This document shows positions 9,414-16,199 of a stretch of 64,000 nucleotides of DNA, one piece after another; position 1 is the first letter of the stretch, and each line of letters opens with the position of its first letter. The notes under the pieces were generated by a model, which was given only the letters and a program-made list of their open reading frames with translations, had not been told where the DNA came from and made no database searches. Source of the stretch: Xanthomarina sp. F2636L. Its GTDB lineage: Bacteria > Bacteroidota > Bacteroidia > Flavobacteriales > Flavobacteriaceae. The stretch covers positions 1 to 64,000 of the forward strand of contig NZ_JAPMLM010000072.1 of assembly GCF_026410195.1 (NCBI RefSeq), written 5' to 3'. A program made the translations under genes and the position numbers.

Positions 9414-9444
9414 TTTGAATAAATCATTTTCATTTCTATCTTTG
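9414..9444 (+). promoter_or_regulatory. Promoter of the trp operon
   Basis: TTTG at 9414-9417 and TATCTTTG at 9437-9444 with a 19-bp spacer match the Bacteroidota -33 TTTG / -7 TANNTTTG consensus without mismatch. Transcription would start near 9450, giving a leader of about 150 nt before trpE that contains the leader peptide and terminator. The rest of the 9223-9413 gap shows nothing I can assign. Confidence 0.8.
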
Positions 9445-9462
9445 AAAAACATAAAAACAATA

Positions 9463-9525
9463 ATGAATACAATTTTAAATCATACTTGGTGGTGGAACTT
9501 TCGAAACTCAAACTTCGTGAGGTAA
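9463..9525 (+). CDS. trpL: trp operon leader peptide
   Basis: A 20-residue open frame from ATG 9463 to TAA 9523-9525, lying between a perfect Bacteroidota promoter and a terminator hairpin in front of trpE. Residues 9-11 are three consecutive Trp codons (TGG at 9487-9495), far above chance. Known attenuation logic: low charged tRNA-Trp stalls the ribosome at these codons and changes downstream RNA folding so that transcription continues into trpE. The peptide itself need have no function. The call rests on sequence and position; no homologous peptide was compared. Confidence 0.88.
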   Translation: MNTILNHTWWWNFRNSNFVR

Positions 9526-9585
9526 CCTTTTGTATATTTAAAACTCAAAATAACAAGGCTTGTCATTCACGACAAGCCTTTTTTT
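9524..9585 (+). terminator. trp attenuator (regulated intrinsic terminator)
   Basis: AAGGCTTGTC (9555-9564) and GACAAGCCTT (9571-9580) form a perfect 10-bp stem with a 6-nt loop, followed by seven T, 14 bp before the trpE ATG at 9600. AACCTTTTG at 9524-9532, overlapping the leader stop codon, can pair with the 5' arm (AACCTT with AAGGCTT, one bulge) and is a candidate antiterminator strand that a ribosome at the leader stop would cover. The terminator is clear; the alternative fold is inferred. Confidence 0.85.
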
Positions 9586-9599
9586 ATATAAATTATTAA

Positions 9600-11003
9600 A
9601 TGAAAACATTCAGTTTATACACCCATCATAAAAAAATACTTTCAGATACGATGACTCCTGTAAGTATCTATCTTAAAATACGTGATAAATTTCCAAACAG
9701 TATTCTTTTAGAGAGTAGTGATTATCATGCCAACGACAACAGTTTCTCATATATCTGTTGCAATCCTATTGCCTCTATTGAAGTTAAAAATGAAGTTATC
9801 ACACAAACCTTTCCAGATGGAACCATTTTTAAAAATAATATTCATAAAAATACGAGTGTTCCTGAGGTTATCCATAAATTCACTAAGCGTTTCAAAGTAC
9901 AATCTGAAAAACATTTCAAATTTATAAACAATGGCATTTTTGGTTATCTAGCTTATGATGCTGTTAGGTATTTTGAAGATATTGCGATTTCAAAAAAAGA
10001 AAAACATTTAGATATTCCGGATATTTATTATGCTGTATATCAAAACATTATTGCAATCAATCATTTTAAAAATGAAGCTCACATTTTTGCACATTGTTTT
10101 AACGCAGAAAATAATATCGATGATATACTCCAACTGATAAAATCCAAAAATTTTGCTGCTTTTAGTTTTTCAACAAAAGGCGAAACCACATCCAATCTTA
10201 CGGACTATGAATATAAAGAACATGTGGAATTAGCAAAGAAGCATTGTGCTCGTGGTGATGTGTTTCAATTAGTACTTTCAAAAAAATTCTCTCAAGACTT
10301 TAAAGGTGATGAGTTTAATGTATATCGCGCCTTACGAAGTATTAATCCTTCTCCATACTTGTTTTATTTCGATTATGGCGATTTTAAAATCTTTGGCAGT
10401 TCACCAGAAGCGCAACTAGTAATCCATAATGACAAAGCTGAAATTCACCCGATTGCAGGCACATTTAAACGTACAGGAAACGACGAAAAAGATACTGAAT
10501 TAGCAAAAAAACTGGCTTTAGACGATAAGGAAAATGCTGAGCACGTGATGTTAGTAGATTTAGCTAGAAACGATTTAAGTAGAAACGGAAGTCAAGTAGT
10601 AGTAGAAAACTATCGCGAAGTTCAGTTTTTCTCTCATGTCATTCACTTGGTAAGTAAAGTCACTGGCACCAAACATAAAAACACAAAAACCATGCAAGTA
10701 GTTGCAGATACGTTTCCTGCTGGAACTTTAAGTGGTGCTCCAAAACATAAAGCCATGCAGCTTATTGAAAAATACGAAAAAACCAGTCGCGATTTTTATG
10801 GAGGAGCCATTGGTTTTATGGATTTTGAAGGAAATTTTAATCATGCCATTATGATTAGAACATTCTTAAGCAAAGACCATCAATTACATTGGCAGGCTGG
10901 AGCTGGTTTGGTTTCTAAATCAAATCCGGAAAACGAATTACAAGAAGTTTATAACAAATTAGGAGCCTTAACAAAAGCTATTGAAATTGCAGAGGAGATT
11001 TGA
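9600..11003 (+). CDS. trpE: Anthranilate synthase component I
   Basis: 467 residues, normal length. Converts chorismate plus ammonia (from TrpG) to anthranilate, the first committed step of tryptophan synthesis, in the cytoplasm. The N-terminal LLESS motif (about residues 35-39) is the tryptophan feedback site of TrpE. The C-terminal chorismate-binding domain shows GSSPEAQ, HPIAGTFKRTG, VDLARNDLSR and FPAGTLSGAPKHKAM. The start at 9600 follows the attenuator by 14 bp. First gene of trpEGDCFBA; TrpG follows after 100 bp. Para-aminobenzoate synthase is excluded by the LLES motif and operon context. Confidence 0.97.
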   Translation: MKTFSLYTHHKKILSDTMTPVSIYLKIRDKFPNSILLESSDYHANDNSFSYICCNPIASIEVKNEVITQTFPDGTIFKNNIHKNTSVPEVIHKFTKRFKVQSEKHFKFINNGIFGYLAYDAVRYFEDIAISKKEKHLDIPDIYYAVYQNIIAINHFKNEAHIFAHCFNAENNIDDILQLIKSKNFAAFSFSTKGETTSNLTDYEYKEHVELAKKHCARGDVFQLVLSKKFSQDFKGDEFNVYRALRSINPSPYLFYFDYGDFKIFGSSPEAQLVIHNDKAEIHPIAGTFKRTGNDEKDTELAKKLALDDKENAEHVMLVDLARNDLSRNGSQVVVENYREVQFFSHVIHLVSKVTGTKHKNTKTMQVVADTFPAGTLSGAPKHKAMQLIEKYEKTSRDFYGGAIGFMDFEGNFNHAIMIRTFLSKDHQLHWQAGAGLVSKSNPENELQEVYNKLGALTKAIEIAEEI

Positions 11004-11103
11004 GTGTTCAGTCGTAGTAGGCAATTTTCACTCGAACATAAAAAAAGAAAAACCAATAAAACGAAAACATAATTATTTGTGTATTCGTGGCAATTAATAT
11101 CAC

Positions 11104-11670
11104 ATGAAAAATATATTAGTTATTGACAATTACGACAGTTTCACCTACAATCTAGTTCATTATTTAGAAGATTTAGGCTGTCAAGTAACCGTAAAAAGAA
11201 ACGATCAACTTCATTTAGATGATGTTGAAGCTTTTTATAAAATTGTTCTATCTCCAGGCCCTGGAATTCCAGATGAAGCAGGTTTATTAAAACCCATTAT
11301 TAAAAAGTATGCTAATACAAAAAGTATTTTGGGAGTCTGTTTGGGACAGCAAGCCATAGCTGAAGTTTTTGGTGGAAAACTCATCAATTTAGAAACGGTT
11401 TTTCATGGGGTTGCAACAAAAGTTACCTCTTGTGTTACTGATGAAGTACTTTTTAAAGGTTTAGAAAAAACGTTTGAAGTTGGCAGATATCATTCCTGGG
11501 TAGTAGACACCAAACTCCCAGAAGAATTAGAAGCAACTTCTTTTGATGAAAACGGACAAATCATGTCTTTAAGACATAGAATATACGATGTTAAAGGAGT
11601 TCAATATCATCCGGAATCGGTATTAACACCTAACGGAAAAAAGATATTAGAAAATTGGATCAATCAATAG
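11104..11670 (+). CDS. trpG: Anthranilate synthase component II (glutamine amidotransferase)
   Basis: 188 residues, the usual size of a stand-alone TrpG. Class I glutamine amidotransferase that hydrolyses glutamine and feeds ammonia to TrpE. Visible features are the N-terminal DNYDSFTYNLV, the oxyanion segment SPGPGIP, the nucleophile Cys79 in GVCLGQQAIAE, and the His-Glu pair in YHPESVLT. Lies 100 bp after trpE and 82 bp before trpD, with no terminator seen in either gap. In some bacteria such subunits also serve folate synthesis; that cannot be judged here. Confidence 0.96.
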   Translation: MKNILVIDNYDSFTYNLVHYLEDLGCQVTVKRNDQLHLDDVEAFYKIVLSPGPGIPDEAGLLKPIIKKYANTKSILGVCLGQQAIAEVFGGKLINLETVFHGVATKVTSCVTDEVLFKGLEKTFEVGRYHSWVVDTKLPEELEATSFDENGQIMSLRHRIYDVKGVQYHPESVLTPNGKKILENWINQ

Positions 11671-11752
11671 TGTTTCAGAGTAATCACATAAACGTATAAA
11701 AAAATAAAAAGACGTATAACTAATAAGAAACACCTACTTCCTAGGTAGATAT

Positions 11753-12751
11753 ATGAAACAAATATTAAACAGACTCATTAATCAAGAAAGCATCTCTAGC
11801 GAAGAAGCAAAACAAGTTTTGATAAACATTTCCAAAGGCGATTATAACCAAAGCCAAATGGCATCTTTTCTAACGGTATTTATGATGAGAAGCATTACCA
11901 TAGAAGAGCTTTTTGGATTTAGAGATGCCCTTTTAGAATTGTGCATTCCTGTAGATTTAAAAGCTTATAACGCCATCGATTTATGTGGTACTGGAGGTGA
12001 TGGAAAAGACACATTTAACATTTCTACTTTAGCTTCTTTTGTAACAGCAGGTGCAGGAATACACGTTACCAAACATGGAAATTATGGTGTCTCTTCAGCT
12101 TGTGGTTCTTCTAATGTTTTGGAACATTTAGGGGTTAAATTCACTTCAGATGCAGATTTTTTAAAACGCAGTTTAGACGAAGCTGGAATATGCATCTTAC
12201 ATGCGCCATTATTTCACCCAGCCATGAAACATGTGGCTCCTATAAGACGTGAACTTGGTATAAAAACATTTTTTAACATGTTAGGACCCATGGTAAATCC
12301 ATCGTTTCCAAAACATCAAATGGTTGGCGTATTTAATTTGGAATTATTAAGAATGTATGGGTATTTATATCAAAATACAGATAAAAATTACACCATTCTT
12401 CATGCCTTAGATGGTTATGATGAAATTTCTTTAACAGGACCAACAAAAGTCATTAAGAACACATCAGAATATATTATCAATCCAGAAGATTTTGGTCTCG
12501 AACATTTAAGCCAAGAAGCCATTCATGGAGGAAATTCGGTATCAACTTCGGCTAAAATATTTACACATATTTTAAACGGACAAGGAACAGAAGCCCAAAA
12601 CCATGTAGTTTATGCCAATGCTGCTATGGCTATCGCAACGGTTACAAATAAAACTGTGGCAGACAGTTTCAATTTGGCTAAAGAATCTTTAGAAAGTGGC
12701 AAAGCTTTAAATAGCTTCAAACAACTAGTAAAACTAAGTAAGAAGAAATGA
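11753..12751 (+). CDS. trpD: Anthranilate phosphoribosyltransferase
   Basis: 332 residues. Transfers the phosphoribosyl group of PRPP to anthranilate. The glycine-rich PRPP loop CGTGGDGKDTFNIST (about residues 74-88) and the downstream KHGNYGVSSACGSSNVLE are family signatures, as is RRELGIKTFFNMLGPMVNP. The 3' end overlaps the trpC start by 4 bp (ATGA), indicating translational coupling. Confidence 0.97.
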   Translation: MKQILNRLINQESISSEEAKQVLINISKGDYNQSQMASFLTVFMMRSITIEELFGFRDALLELCIPVDLKAYNAIDLCGTGGDGKDTFNISTLASFVTAGAGIHVTKHGNYGVSSACGSSNVLEHLGVKFTSDADFLKRSLDEAGICILHAPLFHPAMKHVAPIRRELGIKTFFNMLGPMVNPSFPKHQMVGVFNLELLRMYGYLYQNTDKNYTILHALDGYDEISLTGPTKVIKNTSEYIINPEDFGLEHLSQEAIHGGNSVSTSAKIFTHILNGQGTEAQNHVVYANAAMAIATVTNKTVADSFNLAKESLESGKALNSFKQLVKLSKKK

Positions 12752-13533
12752 ATATATTAGATAAAATAGTAGCCGATAAACACCAAGAACTTATCTTAAA
12801 AAAAGAGATGTTCACTGTAAAAATGCTTGAAAAGATTCCTTTTTTTGAGAGAAACACGTTCTCCTTAACTAATAATTTACAAAACAGTACATCTGGAATT
12901 ATTGCCGAATTTAAAAGGCGTTCCCCTTCTAAGTCCATTATAAATAATACGGCATTGGTAGAAGACATAGCCATTGGTTATGAGGATGCAGGCGTTTGTG
13001 GCATGTCCGTTTTAACCGATGAAATATATTTTGGAGGCACATTAGACGATTTAATAACTGCAAGACAAAACTGTACTTTACCCATTCTAAGAAAAGAATT
13101 TATAATAGACGATTTTCAAATTATTGAAGCCAAAGCATTTGGAGCAGATGTTATTTTATTAATTGCTGCTATTTTAACCAAAGCAGAAATAAAACGTTTT
13201 TCAGAATTAGCAAAAAGCCTTGATTTAGAAGTGCTTTTAGAGGTTCATAACGAAGAGGAATTACACAAATCCCTAATGCCTAGTCTTGATATGATTGGTG
13301 TAAACAACAGAAATTTAAAAACTTTTGAAGTCAGTTTAAAAACCAGTAAAACACTAAGCTCACTAATTCCAGACAAATTTATTAAAGTATCAGAAAGTGG
13401 CATTAGTTCTATTGAAGCAATTAAAGAATTACAACCATATGGATACCAAGGTTTTTTAATTGGCGAAAACTTTATGAAAACTAAGAATCCAGGAAAAAGT
13501 GCCAAAGAATTTATAAAAACTTTAGAAAGATGA
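12748..13533 (+). CDS. trpC: Indole-3-glycerol phosphate synthase
   Basis: 261 residues, a mono-functional TrpC. Catalyses ring closure of the carboxyphenylamino-deoxyribulose phosphate to indole-3-glycerol phosphate. Beta/alpha-barrel signatures: IIAEFKRRSPSK (catalytic Lys), VLTDEIYFGG, LRKEFIIDDFQIIEAKAFGADVILLIAA, GVNNRNLKTFEV and SESGIS. Overlaps trpD and trpF by 4 bp each, so the three are tightly coupled. Confidence 0.97.
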   Translation: MNILDKIVADKHQELILKKEMFTVKMLEKIPFFERNTFSLTNNLQNSTSGIIAEFKRRSPSKSIINNTALVEDIAIGYEDAGVCGMSVLTDEIYFGGTLDDLITARQNCTLPILRKEFIIDDFQIIEAKAFGADVILLIAAILTKAEIKRFSELAKSLDLEVLLEVHNEEELHKSLMPSLDMIGVNNRNLKTFEVSLKTSKTLSSLIPDKFIKVSESGISSIEAIKELQPYGYQGFLIGENFMKTKNPGKSAKEFIKTLER

Positions 13534-14168
13534 AATTAAAAATATGTGGTATGAAATACCTCGATAACATCAAGGAAGTTTCAAGCTTACAACCTGATTA
13601 TCTAGGATTTATATTCTATGAAAAATCTTCTCGTTTTTTTGAAGGAAAACTCCCTGAAATACCAAAGCAAATCAAAAAAGTTGGGGTTTTTGTAGATGCT
13701 GATATTTCAGATATTATCGGAAAGGTGATAAAACACGAATTAAATATCATTCAACTGCATGGCAATGAAGACGAACTTTATGTATTGCGATTAAATATAG
13801 CGTTGAGGCTTTACTCTCCTGATGTTTTGGTTTGGAAGGTTTTTTCTATAGATGACCATTTCAAATTCAACAAATTAAAACCTTTTGAAAATAAAGTCGA
13901 TAAGTTCCTATTCGACACTAAAGGTAAACAACCAGGAGGAAATGGTTTCACCTTTAATTGGAACATTTTAAATAGCTATCCTTCATCAAAACCATTTATT
14001 TTAAGTGGTGGAATAGGTATAGACGAGATAGATAATCTAAAGACGTTTTTTAAAAACGATGTTTCTAAGTATTGCTATGCCTTAGACATCAATAGCAAAT
14101 TTGAAATAACACCAGGATTAAAAGACATTGAAAAGTTAAAAAAAATAAATCTCAATTATGAGCTATAA
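13530..14168 (+). CDS. trpF: Phosphoribosylanthranilate isomerase
   Basis: 212 residues, single-domain TrpF. Isomerises N-(5-phosphoribosyl)anthranilate. The catalytic Cys lies in [12 protein letters not shown] at the N-terminus, with [31 protein letters not shown] and the phosphate-binding LSGGIG following in barrel order. Starts within the end of trpC (4-bp overlap) and its last 11 bp overlap trpB. Confidence 0.96.
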
Positions 14169-15339
14169 TATAAACGAAAGAGGTTATTACGGAGATTTTG
14201 GAGGTGCGTATATTCCAGAAATGCTCTATCCAAATGTAGAGGAATTACGTCAAAACTATTTAAAAATTATGGCTGAGTCAGAGTTTCAAAAGGAATTCAA
14301 TCAGCTATTAAAAGATTATGTTGGTAGGCCTTCCCCCCTCTATTTTGCCAAACGCCTTTCAGAAAAGTATAAGACTAAAATCTATTTAAAACGTGAAGAT
14401 CTGAATCATACAGGAGCTCATAAAATAAATAATACCATTGGGCAGATTTTAATGGCAAAACGTTTAGGAAAACATCGTATCATTGCCGAAACTGGGGCTG
14501 GCCAACATGGTGTTGCTACGGCAACAGTTTGCGCATTAATGGGTTTAGAATGTATAGTGTATATGGGAGAAATTGACATTACTAGACAGGCTCCAAATGT
14601 TGCAAGAATGAAAATGCTTGGAGCTACAGTTATTCCAGCAAAATCAGGTAGCAGAACTCTTAAAGATGCTACCAACGAAGCGATTCGAGATTGGATTAAC
14701 AACCCAGTGGATACACATTATATTATTGGGTCTGTAGTTGGGCCACATCCATATCCAGACATGGTAGCTCGATTTCAAGCAGTAGTATCTGAAGAAATCC
14801 AATGGCAATTACATGAACATGAAGGAAAATCAGAACCTGATTATGTGATAGCTTGCGTTGGTGGAGGCAGCAATGCAGCTGGTGCCTATTATCACTTTTT
14901 AGACAACACAAATGTCAAGCTTTTGGCAGTTGAAGCAGCTGGAAAAGGCATTCATTCTGGTGAAAGTGCTGCGACTTCAGTTTTAGGAAAAGAAGGAATT
15001 ATACATGGAAGCAAAACACTTTTAATGCAAACAAATGATGGGCAAATTACAGAACCCTACTCCATATCGGCAGGACTTGATTACCCCGGAGTTGGCCCCA
15101 TGCATGCCCATTTGTACAAAACCGGACGGGCAAAATTTTTATCTGTTACTGATGAAGAAGCTATGAGTGCTGGATTAGATCTATGCAAATTAGAAGGGAT
15201 TATTCCGGCAATAGAAAGTTCGCATGCCTTAGCTGTTTTCGAAAAGACATCTTTTAATCCAACCGATATTGTGGTTGTTAGTTTATCTGGACGTGGAGAC
15301 AAGGATTTGGAAACTTATATAAAGCATTTTAAATTATAA
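14158..15339 (+). CDS. trpB: Tryptophan synthase beta chain
   Basis: 393 residues. PLP enzyme that condenses indole with serine. The PLP Lys is K89 in [15 protein letters not shown]; the phosphate loop is GGGSNAAG, and the alpha-subunit contact region and the C-terminal SGRGDKD are present. It is a TrpB1-type chain that would pair with TrpA encoded 95 bp downstream. The start overlaps trpF by 11 bp. The trpB-trpA gap ends in a small hairpin next to the trpA start. Confidence 0.98.
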
Positions 15340-15410
15340 GATATCTTTATTTGAAATAGTCAAACTTCATTTAAAGATTCACAAAAAATATAATTTTAAT
15401 TAAAAAATGA

Positions 15411-15428
15411 TTCCCACTTCTGTGGGAA
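15411..15428 (+). promoter_or_regulatory. Hairpin just upstream of the trpA start codon
   Basis: TTCCCAC (15411-15417) and GTGGGAA (15422-15428) form a perfect 7-bp GC-richer stem with a 4-nt loop, ending 6 bp before the trpA ATG at 15435. No T-run follows, so it is not an intrinsic terminator. It could limit or time trpA translation or block 3' exonucleases. Role inferred from position only. Confidence 0.4.
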
Positions 15429-15434
15429 GTAAAC

Positions 15435-16199
15435 ATGAACAGAATCAACAAAAAATTACTGGAAGACAAAAAGCTATTGTCTATATATTTCACAGCAGGA
15501 TACCCAAGTCTAAACGATACAAAAGCTATTATCGAAGATCTCGAAAAAAGCGGAGTGGACATGTTAGAAATAGGTTTACCTTTTAGCGACCCACTTGCCG
15601 ATGGACCAACCATTCAAGCTAGTTCTACTCAGGCACTAAAAAACGGCATGACTACTGAAGTCCTTTTTACCCAACTTAAAGACATTAGAAAAACTGTTAA
15701 TATTCCTTTAATAATTATGGGGTATTTTAATCCGATTTTACAATATGGCGTTGAGGCCTTCTGTAAAAAATGCCAGGAAATTGGTATCGACGGCCTCATT
15801 ATTCCAGATTTACCTATAGATGTATATCACGAAAAGTATCAGACAACGTTTGAAAGACACAGCATTATTAATGTATTCCTAATCACACCTCAAACAAGTG
15901 AAGAACGCATAAGATATATAGATTCTATTTCAAACGGGTTCATTTATATGGTAAGTAGTGCAAGTGTTACTGGAAGTCAATCAGGTTTTGGCGAAGCACA
16001 AACCCAATATTTTAAGCGCATATCTAATATGAAGCTTAAAAATCCTCAAATAGTAGGATTTGGGATTTCTGACAGTAAAACATTTAAACAAGCAACTCAA
16101 TTTACGAAAGGAGCCATCATTGGAAGTGCGTTCATTAAGTATATAACAAAATTTGGTGTAAAAAATCTTAAAAGATTTATAAAGCAAATAAAAGATTAG
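15435..16199 (+). CDS. trpA: Tryptophan synthase alpha chain
   Basis: 254 residues. Cleaves indole-3-glycerol phosphate to indole, which passes to TrpB. Signatures: YFTAGYPSLNDT, the catalytic Glu in DMLEIGLPFSDPLADGPTIQ, the loop Asp in GLIIPDLP, YMVSSASVTGSQSG and GFGIS. Last gene of the trp set; no terminator is visible in the 52-bp gap to the next gene, so read-through to the amidohydrolase gene is possible. Confidence 0.97.
   Translation: MNRINKKLLEDKKLLSIYFTAGYPSLNDTKAIIEDLEKSGVDMLEIGLPFSDPLADGPTIQASSTQALKNGMTTEVLFTQLKDIRKTVNIPLIIMGYFNPILQYGVEAFCKKCQEIGIDGLIIPDLPIDVYHEKYQTTFERHSIINVFLITPQTSEERIRYIDSISNGFIYMVSSASVTGSQSGFGEAQTQYFKRISNMKLKNPQIVGFGISDSKTFKQATQFTKGAIIGSAFIKYITKFGVKNLKRFIKQIKD

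Follow-up and report, generated by a model that had tools for sequence, protein, structure and literature searches.

A Bacteroid-trp (RF01692) leader ahead of trpEGDCFBA in Xanthomarina sp. F2636L, a probable ribosome-mediated attenuator with a conserved candidate antiterminator strand at the leader stop

Described trp attenuators and the RF01692 family

The E. coli trp attenuator comprises a promoter, a Trp-codon leader, mutually exclusive hairpins, and a terminator, with the position of the ribosome deciding the outcome; its antiterminator pairs with the terminator 5′ arm. The closest described systems in Bacteroidota are (i) Bacteroid-trp, given as a likely cis-regulatory RNA of Bacteroidetes in Table 1 of Weinberg et al. 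2010 (PMC2864571), and (ii) the trp operon of Flavobacterium psychrophilum, where a Bacteroid-trp element lies upstream and is likened to E. coli attenuation in the relevant passages of a 2019 paper (PMC6414381). For the same species, a passage of a further paper describes strong clues for leader-peptide attenuation ahead of amino-acid operons (PMC9723704). No experimental test of a Bacteroid-trp attenuator was found among the open-licence papers searched.

The window analyzed here is a 64,000-nucleotide stretch of the Xanthomarina sp. F2636L genome (assembly GCF_026410195.1, contig NZ_JAPMLM010000072.1, positions 1 to 64,000), a member of the Flavobacteriaceae in the class Bacteroidia. The leader ahead of its trp operon matches RF01692 above the gathering score, with an E-value of 3.9e-4 for the whole window and coverage of model positions 1-131 of 131, and the tryptophan genes that the location criterion of the family calls for lie downstream, with trpE at 9600. 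Judged by its sequence, the leader is a member of RF01692 and not a new system, its kind being already catalogued for these bacteria. Since RF01692 is already a named Rfam family, the leader does not represent an undescribed use of attenuation in Bacteroidota. Very probably, it functions as a ribosome-mediated transcription attenuator of the trp operon, in which the pairing of a conserved strand (strand A) with the terminator loop provides the switch.

The leader shares with its E. coli counterpart the order of parts, namely promoter, Trp-codon leader, mutually exclusive hairpins, and terminator. It differs in that its conserved strand targets the loop of the terminator and the first 3′-arm bases, not the 5′ arm, and in lacking a Shine-Dalgarno-like site. 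Like RF01692, it is a Trp-codon leader ahead of a trp operon and scores above gathering over all 131 model positions, whereas the model covers the terminator only as far as its 5′ arm and thus lacks both the 3′ arm and the A:loop pairing. A Bacteroid-trp element before the trp operon is common to F. psychrophilum and the window; an antiterminator strand, absent from the relevant passages on the F. psychrophilum leader, is proposed for the window leader.

Architecture of the leader and the operon

A sequence-only reading of this DNA had laid out a promoter, a 20-codon leader peptide, Trp codons, a terminator, and trpE as a trp attenuator, and each of these elements is found at the position and in the order proposed (Table 1). 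The arrangement is more than chance: besides the RF01692 score, the leader fold has a z-score of -3.87, with 0 of 200 shuffles equally stable, and matches occur in relatives. The long A+U-rich helix around the Trp codons is the counterpart of the outer helix in the RF01692 consensus, and the terminator stem comprises 10 bp. The leader DNA has a further match in its own genome (L002), which is short, falls where an unrelated gene begins, and does not represent another attenuator.

Table 1. Coordinates of the leader features and of the trp genes in the window
Feature	Positions	Strand	Basis
Promoter: TTTG 9414-9417, 19-nt spacer, TATCTTTG 9437-9444	9414-9444	+	sequence
RF01692 Bacteroid-trp match	9443-9564	+	56.2 bits, gathering score 49
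Leader ORF, 20 codons, MNTILNHTWWWNFRNSNFVR*; ATG 9463, TAA 9523-9525	9463-9525	+	sequence
Long A+U-rich helix around the Trp codons, 5′ strand; partner 9532-9543	9473-9485	+	MFE fold
Regulatory codons TGG TGG TGG (WWW)	9487-9495	+	sequence
Strand B; partner 9514-9521 in the untranslated leader	9498-9505	+	MFE fold
Strand A, UCGUGAG, conserved candidate antiterminator by the leader stop	9515-9521	+	alignment, folding
Inner antiterminator strand, variable pairs to 9553-9564; overlaps 9524-9532	9522-9533	+	fold of 9506-9573
Long A+U-rich helix, 3′ strand	9532-9543	+	MFE fold, RF01692 consensus
Terminator 5′ arm, AAGGCUUGUC	9555-9564	+	sequence, alignment
Terminator loop AUUCAC and first two 3′-arm bases; 9566-9572 is the strand A target	9565-9572	+	
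Terminator 3′ arm, GACAAGCCUU, 9571-9580, and T-run 9579-9585	9571-9585	+	sequence, fold, alignment
trpE	9600-11003	+	ORF, NCBIfam
trpG	11104-11670	+	ORF, NCBIfam
trpD	11753-12751	+	ORF, NCBIfam
trpC	12748-13533	+	ORF, NCBIfam
trpF	13530-14168	+	ORF, NCBIfam
trpB	14158-15339	+	ORF, NCBIfam
trpA	15435-16199	+	ORF, NCBIfam
Operon trpEGDCFBA	9600-16199	+	ORFs, NCBIfam

Comparison is based on an alignment of 172 leaders, 161 inside the family of the window and 11 outside (L160 was dropped as a duplicate of L040). The promoter, which we take to be of the Bacteroidota type from general familiarity with the consensus, recurs as TTTG-N17-21-TANNTTTG in 102/172 related loci, while TANNTTTG alone is present in 161/172. 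Upstream of the leader ORF there is no Shine-Dalgarno-like 4-mer, and such 4-mers precede the leader in just 2 of the 172 loci. A leader that starts without a Shine-Dalgarno site yet keeps a ribosome in step with polymerase bears on transcription-translation coupling in Bacteroidota.

Among the operon genes, trpG, trpD, trpC, trpB, and trpA score above a curated NCBIfam cut-off. The best NCBIfam match of trpE is TIGR00564 trpE_most at 430.7 bits, under the curated cut-off of 517.7, and trpF is best matched as trpF yet also falls under its curated cut-off. Across the 172 loci, the gene that follows the leader is TrpE in 162, TrpD in 5, TrpB in 4, and TrpB-like in 1; the leader thus goes with the first gene of the operon, whichever trp gene that is. 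The TrpB-like case (L131, 200-520, family genome G147) is an attenuator before a gene product with 33% identity to the TrpB of the window. Other families of the class contribute L136, L142, L161, L165, and L170-L174, in which the leader lies ahead of trpB- or trpD-first operons.

Distribution of Trp leaders

Within the genus, 7 of 8 genomes have an RF01692 match (6 above cut-off), as do 128 of 149 genomes of the family at E <= 0.01 (103 above cut-off) and 51 of 392 genomes of the phylum. The 21 family genomes negative for RF01692 comprise 14 with a TrpE of 49-73% identity, 4 with only a 28-33% match, and 3 without TrpE at 1e-40. Reading the 14 trpE loci yields 13 that have a short ORF with at least WW and a terminator, and none of the 14 is matched by Rfam at gathering score; Trp leaders are thereby present in 141 of 149 family genomes (128 by RF01692 and 13 by reading trpE upstreams). 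L188, from family genome G039, is the sole family trpE read (at least 49% identity) that has no recognizable Trp leader.

The class was sampled through 80 genomes, 25 of which have TrpE at 1e-80, giving 26 trpE loci and 20 usable upstreams; those left out are the locus of the window itself (L199), two from genomes already represented (L200 and L217), and three at contig ends (L207, L208, and L224). A Trp-run leader and a terminator are present in 19 of the 20 readable upstreams, the exception being L220 with a single Trp, and Rfam matches 0 of the 20. The leader-plus-terminator rule fires in 32/34 true upstreams, 0/34 reverse strands, and 8/680 shuffles, and it is not perfectly specific, as it also fires in 20 of 199 control segments inside or after trpE.

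In the genomes read, leader-peptide control of trp genes appears to be near-universal in the family and common in the class. Most such class leaders escape the current RF01692 model. The question raised from the window sequence, whether the phylum uses this mode widely, can be answered largely in the affirmative, at least for the class, though the usage had already been described as RF01692. What is added is a corrected antiterminator strand and a range wider than catalogued.

Conservation of the antiterminator pairing

All 172 aligned leaders carry at least two consecutive Trp codons (three in 164, two in the remaining 8) and a terminator, one of which was placed by hand. The terminator arms are paired in 99% of alignment cells, with 66 double-change cells, and the stem covaries. 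On these comparative grounds, ribosome-coupled trp attenuation is well supported.

The conserved antiterminator strand seems to be 9515-9521, which pairs with 9566-9572, and not 9524-9532 (AACCTTTTG) as had been proposed. At its core, UCGUGA (9515-9520) is complementary to UCACGA (9567-9572), that is, to terminator loop bases and two bases of the 3′ arm, and these letters are kept exactly in 135/172 loci. Each of the six core pairs of this A:loop (A:apical) pairing is standard in 157-168 of the 172 rows. Counted over eight pairs, 84% are paired, as opposed to 20-51% when the strands are slid by 1-3 columns, and 0 of 2000 row shuffles reach the observed 0.844 (shuffled 0.827 ± 0.002), a control that ignores relatedness. 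Core changes that keep the pairing occur in L095 (UCGCAA/UUGCGA), L161, L165, and L136. Pairing is likewise kept with changed letters in loci found without Rfam, namely L183 (UCGCGA/UCGCGA), L186 (GGAUUCAG/CUGAAUCC), and L189 (ACCGGAU/AUCCGGU), while L134, L173, and some others pair poorly.

Within the family, the strength of the A:loop pairing is mostly identity rather than covariation. When upstream strands are exchanged between loci, the mean score drops only from 16.7 to 16.0, compared with 10.6 for shuffled strands, and shuffles of single loci give p < 0.05 in only 84/172 aligned loci and, among those found without Rfam, in 5/13 family and 9/19 class loci. A tree-based co-change test over 193 loci, run without ten non-TrpE-headed loci and L068 (L188 and L220 had no leader by the rule), returned 4 supported independent pairs, too few for power, and gave no support for co-change.

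The loci found without Rfam (13 in the family and 19 in the class) were scored for how well the post-Trp strand complements the terminator. The scores exceed those of shuffles, with Fisher p of 1.4e-5 for the family loci and 6.4e-10 for the class loci, and own partners score higher than swapped ones (15.9 vs 13.9 and 18.4 vs 14.7, respectively). This complementarity begins 13-24 nt downstream of the last Trp codon in 13/13 family loci (3.0 expected) and 17/19 class loci (3.8 expected). In some class loci (L211, L212, L216, and L222), 23-29 nt separate the candidate strand from the downstream stop, too far for a stop-bound ribosome to cover it. The best match involves the 3′ arm without the 5′ arm in 10 of the 13 family loci and the 5′ arm without the 3′ arm in 15 of the 19 class loci; given these opposite biases, the antiterminator of the family seems to have shifted to the loop and 3′ arm.

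The class loci outside the family are one reason to weigh the arrangement first proposed for the window, in which 9524-9532 would act as the principal antiterminator by sequestering the terminator 5′ arm, as in E. coli. The stalled fold of this genome (9506-9573) also contains weak inner pairs to the 5′ arm (CCU/AGG and UAA/UUG), and 5′-arm bases are paired upstream with mean probabilities of 0.34-0.92 in the 161 family loci. These inner pairs add to the clamp, with letters that vary between loci. The CCUU/AAGG pairing of the 9524-9532 region with the 5′ arm, however, holds in only 45% of alignment cells and has a duplex energy of -3.4 kcal/mol against -8.3 for A:apical. Moreover, the best match falls on the 3′ arm without the 5′ arm in 152 of the 172 loci and on the 5′ arm without the 3′ arm in 13. 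A main role for 9524-9532 is thus unlikely. Comparison among loci establishes the leader, the Trp codons, the terminator, the A:loop complementarity, and their geometry as parts of the putative attenuator.

Geometry, folding, and proposed mechanism

Measured from the first base of the last Trp codon, strand A starts 14-25 nt downstream in 172/172 loci, and it lies within 15 nt of the leader stop in 170/172. It occupies all three frames relative to the leader (130/36/6), and the constraint is accordingly on the RNA and not on the peptide. The edge of the ribosome is taken as +12, a general footprint value, and the start of strand A falls beyond it; some 14 nt of RNA are hidden inside polymerase. 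Of the ribosome-coupled geometry proposed from the window sequence, the Trp run and the terminator hold, as does the presence of a strand that a ribosome would free at the Trp codons and cover at the stop, while the strand itself had been misplaced.

The segment spanning strands B and A folds better than the mean of its own shuffles in 165/172 loci. In the stalled state, with a ribosome on the later Trp codons and RNA free from 9503, the probability of A:apical is 0.83 when 9570 is the last exposed base, rises to 0.99 at 9575, and falls to 0.08 at 9577; it is at most 0.10 without a ribosome and 0 with a ribosome at the stop. Folding in both states, as the sequence-only reading had suggested, thus separates them. 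In all sets of loci, upstream pairing of the hairpin bases averages 0.90-1.00 when stalled vs 0.23-0.55 when stop-bound, with at most six 3′-arm bases out. Once bases to 9577 are free, the terminator wins at equilibrium even in the stalled state (probability 0.92), and antitermination must for this reason be kinetic. Such kinetic antitermination may be possible because, with about 14 nt hidden, bases past about 9575 would emerge only during the T-run. Were the ribosome to stall already at the first Trp codon, strand B would remain partly free, a point against the mechanism.

In the untranslated leader, strand B is predicted to pair with 9514-9521, which includes strand A, and the terminator (9555-9580) would form. 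When tryptophan is scarce, a ribosome waiting on the Trp codons would cover strand B partly or wholly and disrupt this pairing. Strand A, thus freed, would capture 9566-9572 as these bases leave polymerase, with the weaker inner pairs engaging the 5′ arm, so that the terminator would fail to nucleate and trpEGDCFBA would be read. With ample tryptophan, the ribosome would move on to the stop (9523-9525) and cover strand A, and the terminator would form. The switch between A:loop and terminator is a prediction of folding alone, while we infer the ribosome and polymerase footprints, the timing, and the response to tryptophan. With a strand of seven bases and its target both specified, the mechanism is open to direct testing by compensatory mutants.

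The same complementarity could in principle form a pseudoknot in which strand A and the loop steady the terminator rather than work against it. For A:loop to form, no more than two or three terminator pairs need to open, the lower stem could coexist with it, and the nested folding used cannot score such a structure. A free strand A would then favor termination during stalls at the Trp codons, presumably the wrong sign for a biosynthetic operon, and a steadying role is very unlikely. It is barely credible that the leader ORF is incidental and that control is exerted by a Trp-binding protein (TRAP-like; TRAP binds (G/U)AG repeats in the trp leaders under its control) or directly by tRNA (T-box), given that no T-box reaches gathering score in the whole window, where only RF01692 and one tRNA do, and that the Trp run is kept in 172/172 loci.

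Returning to strand A as an antiterminator, we lean toward a broader reading of the leaders taken together. In trp attenuation of the family, a conserved strand by the leader stop would capture the terminator loop and first 3′-arm bases, which are the last of the hairpin to emerge from polymerase before the T-run ends. In other families of the class, the 5′ arm and loop would be used more often. The need to serve both pairings would explain why the terminator sequence hardly varies. Leader attenuators for Trp, and at least in this genome for His and Phe, would be a class default despite the lack of Shine-Dalgarno sites.

Other amino-acid leaders in the same genome

Two further leaders are found ahead of amino-acid genes in the genome of the window. 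Before hisG (L225, 1292-1348 of contig C51), a His leader ORF, MTFIQSHHHHFHSGTQAS, is followed by a strong terminator; it has no Rfam match, and no convincing antiterminator was found (stalled fold of -4.6 kcal/mol). A 5′ element ahead of hisG is mentioned for F. psychrophilum in a passage of PMC9723704. Before pheA, which encodes prephenate dehydratase (L226, 1326-1406 of contig C66), a Phe/Tyr-rich leader ORF, MKATLNFAYYNWNYFFFNRRNETSYM, occurs together with a terminator; this leader also has no Rfam match, and CGAGAC/GUCUCG is a possible antiterminator pairing.
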